The notes under the pieces are model-generated. The model did not search any database and was not told the DNA's origin. It saw only the letters and a list, made by a program, of their open reading frames with translations. DNA of 42,747 bases from an uncultured Clostridiaceae bacterium (GTDB taxonomy: Bacteria > Bacillota > Clostridia > Lachnospirales > Lachnospiraceae). The translations under genes were made by a program, and so were the position numbers. Each line of letters opens with the position of its first letter. Position 1 is the stretch's first letter. Of the stretch, positions 2,961 to 35,361 are shown piece by piece. Location: positions 1 through 42,747 of the forward strand of contig CAMHJT010000004.1 of the NCBI GenBank assembly GCA_946185495.1, in the 5' to 3' direction.

Positions 2961-3083
2961 GTATCTGTTCAGCAGGTACTGAACAGATACGCAGCGGGTG
3001 AAGCCGGCACATCCTGATTCATCCGCTGCATGGCATAATACACTGTTGACACAGTCTGCGCAGCAAACGCGCAGATCTGCTGA
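2961..3083 (-). repeat. Dispersed palindromic repeat, copy A
   Basis: Reverse strand CAGCAGATCTGCGCGTTTGCTGCGCAGACTGTGTCAACAGTGTATTATGCCATGCAGCGGATGAATCAGGATGTGCCGGCTTCACCCGCTGCGTATCTGTTCAGTACCTGCTGAACAGATAC aligns along its length with copies E and F. Confidence 0.82.
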
Positions 3084-10449: not shown

Positions 10450-10577
10450 CCGGACGGCTTCCGGCGGATAGTTCATTTGCACTCCGGGCACGCTCTCGCT
10501 TAGTTGCTCACGCAACGGTACTAAGATGCGCCAGCTTTGCCCGCTGCGTATCTGCTTGACACCTGCTGAGCCGTTAC
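10450..10577 (+). repeat. Dispersed palindromic repeat, mosaic copy B
   Basis: Right half (ctaagatgcgccagctttgcccgctgcgtatctgcttgacacctgctgagccgttac) matches copies E and F; left half (gttcatttgcactccgggcacgctctcgcttagttgctcac) matches 16677..16742. Confidence 0.7.
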
Positions 10578-13685: not shown

Positions 13686-13757
13686 GTAACTGCTCGGCAA
13701 AATATACTGTTTGGGTACGGTCTGCGCAGTGAATGCGCAGACCTGCTGAGTAGTTAC
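13686..13757 (-). repeat. Dispersed palindromic repeat, internally deleted copy C
   Basis: Reverse strand GTAACTACTCAGCAGGTCTGCGCATTCACTGCGCAGACCGTACCCAAACAGTATATTTTGCCGAGCAGTTAC: left end and hairpin 1, then directly the right terminus. Confidence 0.8.
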
Positions 13758-26050: not shown

Positions 26051-27268
26051 TCACGCTTTCCCTGCCTCTGCACACAGCGCGACCGCCGTCGTTACGCCGT
26101 CGTGAATCTGCTTCGGACACACAAGCCTTGCCCCTTCCCCCGCTGCAGCCACAGCGCTTCTCTCACACACATTAGTCACTCCGGTCACCTTCCCAACAAA
26201 GGCGGATTCCGAGAATCTGCCCGGAAGCCCCCTAAGCTCTTCCGCGGAGAACGTCAGCAGCGAAAGGCCGCTGTTTCCGCAAAATACCACAAGCCCCGGC
26301 TCTTCTTTTTTCAGGTCGATCGTGGCCACCGCTGATACGGCCTCCATGCGCAGGTCCAGCAGCTTCAGGCAGTCCTCTACCGCGTGCCGGATCTGTTCCT
26401 CCGGTATTCCCTTCCTGCAGCCGATCCCGACCACAAACCGCAAGGGAACCAGCTGCAGCGTACACGGAAACACAGGCTGTACCGACCTCCTGCCGGATAC
26501 GCATACGCCAAGCAAACATCCTCCCTCCGCTCCGATTCCGGACAAATCCCTTCCCGTCACGGATTCGGGCAGGGCATTCTCTCCGGTCTGAAACCCCGGC
26601 GGCCTGCCTTCAGAACCTCCATTCCCCTCGCAGCCGCCGCTTTCCGCCACCCCGGATTGCGTGATGCCGTCCGTCCTGCCAGCGCAATGCATCAACCTGA
26701 CTTCCGGCGGAAAATCCTCCAGATACTCCTCCCTATCCAGCCACTTGTCATCCTCGTCGACGCAAAATCCAATCCTTTCACCCTCCAGCAGCGCGGCGGA
26801 AATCCGTTTTGCCAGCTCCCAGTCCGTCACCCGCAGCCCGTGCCGTCTGGCATAGTTATCCACCGAAAACAGACCCTCCCGATCCGTCGCTGTCGTGATC
26901 ACCGGAATGGCGCCGCAGATCGCGGCAACGCGCTCTGCCAGCTCATTTCCGCCTCCCATATGCCCGGACAGGAGGGAAATGCTAAACCGCCCGGACGCGT
27001 CAACCGCGACTACGCCGGGATCCTTCCCCTTATGCGTCAGGCAAGGCGCGACCGACCGCACCGCGATTCCCGCTGCCGCAAAAAAAATAATCCCGTCTAC
27101 GCGGTGAAACCACTCCCCTACGCACTGCGCGACACTCTCCGGCATGCAAAGCTCCGGCAGCGCAGCGCATTTGACCTTGCAGATCCACTCTATCCCTTCC
27201 CACGCCCGCTGCACCTGCCGCATCAGCCGTACACCGCTTGCAGTGCACGCAATCATCAATATCCTCAT
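26051..27268 (-). CDS. cbiG: Cobalt-precorrin-5A hydrolase CbiG
   Basis: FFAAAGIAVRSVAPCLTHKGKDPGVVAVDASGRFSISLLSGHMGGGNELAERVA...TDREGLFSVDNYA...FVVGIGCRKGIPEEQI...VTGVTNVCERSAVAAAG. Confidence 0.92.
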   Translation of the reverse strand: MRILMIACTASGVRLMRQVQRAWEGIEWICKVKCAALPELCMPESVAQCVGEWFHRVDGIIFFAAAGIAVRSVAPCLTHKGKDPGVVAVDASGRFSISLLSGHMGGGNELAERVAAICGAIPVITTATDREGLFSVDNYARRHGLRVTDWELAKRISAALLEGERIGFCVDEDDKWLDREEYLEDFPPEVRLMHCAGRTDGITQSGVAESGGCEGNGGSEGRPPGFQTGENALPESVTGRDLSGIGAEGGCLLGVCVSGRRSVQPVFPCTLQLVPLRFVVGIGCRKGIPEEQIRHAVEDCLKLLDLRMEAVSAVATIDLKKEEPGLVVFCGNSGLSLLTFSAEELRGLPGRFSESAFVGKVTGVTNVCERSAVAAAGEGARLVCPKQIHDGVTTAVALCAEAGKA

Positions 27269-27374
27269 ACGATTCCCCTTGTTGCACAGATATATCATTT
27301 TTTCAGTTGCAATTCCATTTTATGATATCAAAACTTATGACAGGATACAAGGGGCAAAGAAATTACATGAAGGT

Positions 27375-27509
27375 GTAACTACTCAGCAGGTCTGCGCATT
27401 TTACCGCGCAGACCGTGACAAAAACAGTTTATTTTGCCGTGCAGCGGGTGAATGAGGATGCTTAAGCTTCACCCGCTGCGTAACTGTTCCGTACCTGCCG
27501 AACAGTTAC
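27375..27509 (+). repeat. Dispersed palindromic repeat, full-length copy E
   Basis: gtaactactcagcaggtctgcgcattttaccgcgcagac...gcagcgggtgaatgaggatgcttaagcttcacccgctgcgtaactgttccgtacctgccgaacagttac: three hairpins with terminal inverted repeats. Confidence 0.85.
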
Positions 27510-27521
27510 ATGAAGATTTAC

Positions 27522-27550
27522 TTGCCGTTTTCCTTCTGTTTGTATATAAT
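27522..27550 (+). promoter_or_regulatory. Sigma-A-type promoter for the D,D-carboxypeptidase gene
   Basis: TTGCCG - 17 bp - TATAAT. Confidence 0.65.
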
Positions 27551-35171: not shown

Positions 35172-35199
35172 GGTCGGTACCTCCTTTAATTGATGGTTT

Positions 35200-35332
35200 G
35201 TAACTACTCAGCAGGTCTGCACATTCACTGCACAGACTGTGCCAAAACAGTATATTTGCCATACAGCGGTTTCAATAAGGACGCGCCAGCCTTGCCCGCT
35301 GCGTAACTGTTCAGCACCTGCTGAGCAGTTAG
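35200..35332 (+). repeat. Dispersed palindromic repeat, full-length copy F (inside the bceAB leader)
   Basis: gtaactactcagcaggtctgcacattcactgcacagactgtgccaaaacagtatatttgcc...gcccgctgcgtaactgttcagcacctgctgagcagttag. Confidence 0.85.
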
Positions 35333-35361
35333 GATGGTTTTATTGTACCGACAACATTGTT

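Follow-up and report, generated by a model that had tools for sequence, protein, structure and literature searches.

What is the hairpin-rich, 135-bp element that lies between two genes at positions 27375..27509 (+), and how did related sequences come to recur within the window (the whole stretch of DNA analysed, 42,747 nt)? The original prediction named five copies, A, B, C, E, and F, all of which were found, with the coordinates of E and F confirmed. Copy E (27375..27509) is a full-length MITE. It starts with a 17-bp left terminal inverted repeat, GTAACTACTCAGCAGGT (27375..27391, +), followed by hairpin 1 (GTCTGCGCA..CGCGCAGAC; 27390..27413, +), hairpin 2 (GCAGCGGGTGAA..TTCACCCGCTGC; 27441..27479, +), and hairpin 3 (27480..27509, +), a 30-bp palindromic unit in which the right terminal inverted repeat forms the 3' arm. 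The predicted plan of three hairpins plus terminal repeats therefore holds for the hairpins and fails where it treats hairpin 3 as separate from the terminal repeat. Copy E is flanked by 8-bp target duplications, ATGAAGGT on the left (27367..27374) and ATGAAGAT on the right (27510..27517), which agree at 7 of 8 positions. Copy F (35200..35332, +) is also full length, with G rather than C as its final base, and lies between exact copies of GATGGTTT (35192..35199 and 35333..35340). Such duplications are an addition to the original prediction, which reported none. Copy A (2961..3083, −) extends over the full length, but about the first 9 bp at its left end have decayed, and its right end is of the GTATCTG/CAGATAC type; copy B (10502..10577, +; profile match 10502..10576) is a right half only, and copy C (13686..13757, −) is a 72-bp internal-deletion derivative missing its middle. 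The three hairpins are real: the fold of E reaches −58.9 kcal/mol (z = −7.3 against dinucleotide shuffles), with z = −4.6 for A and −3.6 for F, in which hairpin 1 is disrupted by two mismatches, as had been noted.

The family extends far beyond the window. In the source genome (2.91 Mb in 257 contigs, 92% complete), the E-type end GTAACTACTCAGCAGGT had 158 matches with at most two mismatches, against none for the reversed pattern used as control, and BLAST with E returned at least 64 matches (40 of 168 candidates scored). A profile search with nhmmer over 1.94 Mb of this genome gave 106 matches at E ≤ 1e−3, about 40 of them full length and about half partial. Further copies elsewhere in the genome, on which the prediction depended, are thus abundant. 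Family members are typically about 133 bp long with ends of 15 to 17 bp. Most placed copies (76 of 84) lay outside open reading frames, whereas 84% of random positions fell inside them under the same simple greedy calling of reading frames. Among the 54 copies between codirectional genes, 36 were on the strand of both neighbors and 18 on the opposite one, a possible orientation bias that could come from insertion or from selection.

Movement of the family has left direct traces. Of 40 full-length copies, 19 were bordered by duplications matching at 7 or 8 of 8 positions, compared with 1.2% when flanks were re-paired. When end pairs with fixed boundaries and a duplication of at least 7/8 were collected, 15 were 29 to 30 bp long and 14 were 132 to 135 bp long, with few intermediates, while the same search with the left flank shifted yielded 0 to 3 pairs in all. 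Two copies of 133 bp (L002 and L003) are identical and carry differing perfect duplications, GATAATCG and TGCCTGTG, which argues for recent movement. Empty sites were also found: three copies are inserted in members of a second repeat family, and uninterrupted members align across the joint once one copy of the 8 bp is removed. The checks proposed for target duplications and empty sites therefore both gave positive results, at 8 bp and with controls. The family is short and non-coding, with terminal inverted repeats, duplications of fixed length, and a high, dispersed copy number; it is a real and recently active MITE, that is, a non-autonomous DNA transposon. The mobile, MITE-like reading is thus borne out by copy number, duplications, empty sites, and a plausible family of mobilizer.

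The second intergenic repeat, which acts as an insertion target for the three-hairpin family, lies outside the window (e.g., L165:2981-3160 and L095:11606-11744) and has about 70 BLAST matches in the source genome. It is one long palindrome of about 135 to 140 bp with ends ATTGCGAAAC..GTTTCGCAA and a fixed center, TTTTTTCGCCGGCATTAGGAACGTTAGCCAAGAAAAAA, and is probably another MITE. Copies of the three-hairpin family also serve as neighbors for new insertions: in 4 independent cases out of 47 (five rows, two of which come from a single array), the duplication directly adjoins another copy's end, with 0 to 1 bp separating it from the older element (L002, L003, L014, L101:16994-17172, and L274). 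This is far above the expectation for random insertion and suggests that element ends attract insertions. A duplication shared within the C191 array was considered and rejected, the three neighboring copies having different flanks.

A pattern scan of GTDB genomes returned 43 stretches, nearly all from Lachnospiraceae by title, with hosts including Clostridium sp. chh4-2, C. fessum, Murimonas intestini, Blautia parvula, strain COE1, and several MAGs. The left end was present in 9 of 397 sampled Lachnospiraceae genomes, with counts of 136, 63 (Murimonas intestini), 52 (the source genome), 30 (C. fessum), 5, or no more than 2, and it was absent from about 280 genomes of a class sample taken outside this family. 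BLAST did not recover the element in 25 species of the same genus. Such a patchy occurrence is the footprint of horizontal arrival followed by bursts, in which a genome gains as many as about 130 short insertions between genes, able to sit beside promoters. A search of IMG/VR for viral carriage gave neither a match to the left end nor a transposase of the type found in the same genus (L196, see below).

Which transposase moved these copies? No IS66 transposase (PF03050) was detected in the source assembly (92% complete, 257 contigs), and we therefore infer the mobilizer from end sequence and duplication length. The ends match those of L196- and L248-type elements and of ISDge4, and the duplications are 8 bp long, which together point to the ISBst12 group of the IS66 family. 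We give a probability of roughly 0.78 to the reading that the MITE of about 133 bp is moved in trans by an ISBst12-group IS66 transposase with duplication of 8 bp. The single-gene transposase of this group would act on both ends, GTAACT(A/G)CTCAGCA.., which would be cut and pasted, or copied, into a target of which 8 bp are duplicated. A transposase of this kind was presumably present in the lineage of the source genome until recently.

The closest published guide is ISDge4, an IS66-family element of the ISBst12 group with one 449-aa transposase that has been observed transposing (PMC12898284). It has ends GTGACTACTCAGCA and GTAACTGCTCAGCA and an 8-bp repeat, CCTCGATG; the 2026 report presented active transposition of the group as a new finding (PMC12898284). 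The MITE has GTAACTACTCAGCA as its left end, and its hairpin-3 arm, GTAACTGCTCAGCA, is the same as one ISDge4 end, the agreement covering 14 bp, the full length quoted. Both the GTAA terminus and the 8-bp duplication, features of the ISBst12 group, are present in the MITE. The loci of IS66 elements read in relatives showed two types of ends, GTAAGC.. (L182 and L288) and GT(A/T)(A/T)CTRTTCA.. (L196, L248, L249, and L256). It is the second type that agrees with the MITE. The same-genus element L196 spans 1,841 bp, with end GTAACTATTCAG.. and an exact duplication (aagatata), and its transposase gene is interrupted. L248, from another genus of Lachnospiraceae, has ends GTATCTGTTCAG../..CTGAACAGTTAC, with GTAWCTGTTCAG as its first 12 bp, and a single open reading frame of 487 aa (PF03050 and NF033517), without a target duplication. 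Only the first 12 bp or so are common to these elements and the MITE, and the interiors diverge, so we describe the MITE as mobilized by such an element and not as derived from one. An inverted-repeat search at the other IS66 loci (L183-L187 and L289-L291) revealed no element-like ends, and a search of 1.94 Mb of the source genome for an autonomous copy, with end pairs up to 3 to 4 kb apart, found none with a duplication beyond about 171 bp.

The MITE could instead have been moved by another family that makes 8-bp duplications (IS256, ISL3, or IS1595 type) and lies outside the assembly. This would account for the several burst genomes that have no PF03050, the source genome and that of C. fessum among them, but multicopy insertion sequences are often lost from draft assemblies, and the agreement of 12 to 14 bp with ISBst12-group ends, together with the GTAA terminus and 8-bp duplication, in two hosts and ISDge4, makes another mobilizer improbable.

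Besides the full-length copies, shorter forms occur with duplications of their own. Units of 30 bp corresponding to hairpin 3, each with its own 8-bp duplication, are found elsewhere in the source genome. A 29-bp form, GTAACT..GCATTTAC, ends in the hairpin-1 loop and has target duplications at L205, L219, and L279 and in the source genome (C3:982-1010); it was seen in three species, chh4-2 and Murimonas being hosts besides the source genome, even though it lacks a proper inverted repeat at its right end. A 40-bp form occurs twice in C. fessum. The simplest reading makes these forms deletion derivatives. Those of 29, 30, 40, and 72 bp would have kept the original target duplication, after slippage between GTAACT.. 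in the left end and hairpin 3, between TTAC in the hairpin-1 loop and the right end, or at TACTG (40-bp form). Slippage between direct repeats accounts for all of them, so no new movement is needed.

In another explanation of the 30-bp unit, hairpin 3 is itself mobile and the transposase uses a third, internal terminus with the right end. At least 11 such units have duplications of 7 to 8/8, with few intermediate sizes, and a 27-bp hairpin-3 unit of the type seen in relatives lies within a 7/8 duplication in C. fessum (L229:332-358). In addition, at position 7, 9 of 11 units have the letter of hairpin 3 and not that of the left end (P of about 0.05 under uniform slippage), a small and borderline test. 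Against this, ends only 30 bp apart can hardly pair as a duplex, and the same product, with the same duplication, arises when slippage joins the left end to the internal repeat. We consider a mobile 30-bp unit unlikely. A broader proposal, that a functional third terminus in hairpin 3 moves a unit of 27 to 30 bp and that the hairpins are selected for a single-strand or cruciform step in IS66-type transposition, is more doubtful still; if true, a unit consisting of two ends only would be among the smallest known to be moved by a DDE transposase. Deletion by slippage remains our preferred origin for the short forms.

Two features of the anatomy are unusual: subfamilies retain the hairpin plan, and hairpin 3 is an inward repeat of the right terminus. 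Relatives are 131 to 134 bp long, some reaching 150 to 158 bp with extra loops. The left 47 bp are common to them and are followed by a spacer that is short and variable; next come a central hairpin and hairpin 3, whose end is the right terminus. Their central hairpin stands where hairpin 2 does in E and differs from it in sequence (e.g., GCAAAAATCC..GGATTTTTGC or GCACAAATCC..GGATTTGTGC in place of GCAGCGGGTGAA..TTCACCCGCTGC), so the three-hairpin plan is retained despite the change. At position 7 of the terminus, all 25 relatives have the same letter in the hairpin-3 arm as in the right end, whereas 19 have a different one in the left end; the inner arm of hairpin 3 thus copies the right terminus and not the left. 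Self-complementary inserts of 17 to 25 bp, e.g., ATAGCGAACAAGGTTCGCTT, were seen in the hairpin 1 or hairpin 2 region of L210, L242, L240, L232, and L282, from which it appears that the loops tolerate growth.

A test for compensatory substitutions, which the original prediction had called for, was positive. Among the 25 relatives, 14 pairs showed double changes against 8.2 in shuffled alignments, and the covariation score was 0.210 against 0.119 (slid controls, ≤0.083), values whose strength is limited by the choice of relatives through a left-end match and by the relatedness of the rows. Because of that choice, the test bears on hairpins 2 and 3. These covary between subfamilies, and three of the five inner pairs of hairpin 2 change only in step. 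Within the source genome, copies had 23 double-change cells against 8.4, and hairpin 3 covaries (A-U in 31 and U-A in 8), whereas one-sided breaks prevail in hairpins 1 and 2; divergence was 0.06 in stems and 0.12 in spacers. We read this as selection, or palindrome correction, acting on the lineage that moves and not on every individual insertion, and some pair covariation can arise without selection by template-switch correction of palindromes. The hairpins would then serve the element itself, either by forming cruciforms or single-strand structures during transposition or by making its insertions easier to tolerate, and probably do not aid each host gene after insertion. Since pairing persists from one subfamily to another even as individual insertions decay, this family allows a direct test of whether MITE secondary structure is selected for transposition rather than for host function.

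Could the copies nevertheless have been co-opted by the host as RNA structures, as had been suggested? Copy E sits between a cbiG-like gene (26051..27298, −) and a gene for peptidase S11 (d-Ala-d-Ala carboxypeptidase-like, by Pfam). A promoter-like site, by consensus match only, lies just past its right duplication (27522..27550, +) and upstream of the peptidase gene. Given its position between the genes and its end before this site, E is probably outside both neighboring transcripts. No terminator-like site was found around E, and no Rfam covariance model matched the element above its gathering score (best, 19.8 bits against 111). A match to SorY (E = 0.067) was far below threshold and was discarded. 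The only Rfam family in the window is a cobalamin riboswitch (RF00174; 16349..16530, −; 91.5 bits). A host-beneficial RNA or DNA element (a terminator, a processing site, or a site for the nucleoid or a polymerase) that the cell kept once it had inserted, as with some REP/BIME or ERIC sequences, would be in keeping with the stable hairpins, with stems about half as divergent as spacers, and with the 2:1 strand excess between codirectional neighbors. The many broken pairs in single copies, the partial state of about half of the profile matches, the promoter-like site directly beyond E, and the lack of both a terminator-like site and a significant Rfam match make such a role very improbable. The tentative suggestion of co-option is therefore not supported: conservation of the stems is only about twice that of the spacers. 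A host RNA role is unlikely in general, since E likely lies outside transcripts, has no terminator-like site, and belongs to no Rfam family; single copies in leaders could still matter.

Neither Rfam nor the open-access papers searched yielded a named repeat family corresponding to the element, in line with the original prediction. Searches for IS66 with MITE in Lachnospiraceae, or for IS66 with hairpin, retrieved no relevant literature; papers on IS66 and MITEs exist, and among those listed none is on Lachnospiraceae by title. As far as the papers searched allow us to judge, we could not find this Lachnospiraceae MITE described and regard it as a new family of a known kind. Correia/NEMIS, RUP, ERIC, and MITEAba12 elements resemble it in being short, intergenic, and non-coding, with inverted ends, high copy number, and a strong fold. 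They differ in their ends and duplications, and the MITE described here keeps three hairpins across subfamilies and has a right end repeated inward. REP/BIME sequences, associated with TnpA-REP transposases, are likewise intergenic palindromes of high copy number, each a single hairpin next to a conserved tetranucleotide on its 5' side. REPs have neither target duplications nor two inverted ends, whereas this family has both and behaves like the substrate of a DDE transposase, so that of the earlier label "MITE/REP-like" only the first part stands. Compared by their ends, ISDge4 and the ISBst12 group have terminal sequences and an 8-bp duplication in common with the MITE; ISDge4 is autonomous, with one transposase gene, whereas the MITE is non-coding. 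L196 and L248 share the first 12 bp with it, and L196 also has an exact 8-bp duplication, but their interiors differ, and the MITE is thus not a simple internal deletion of either.
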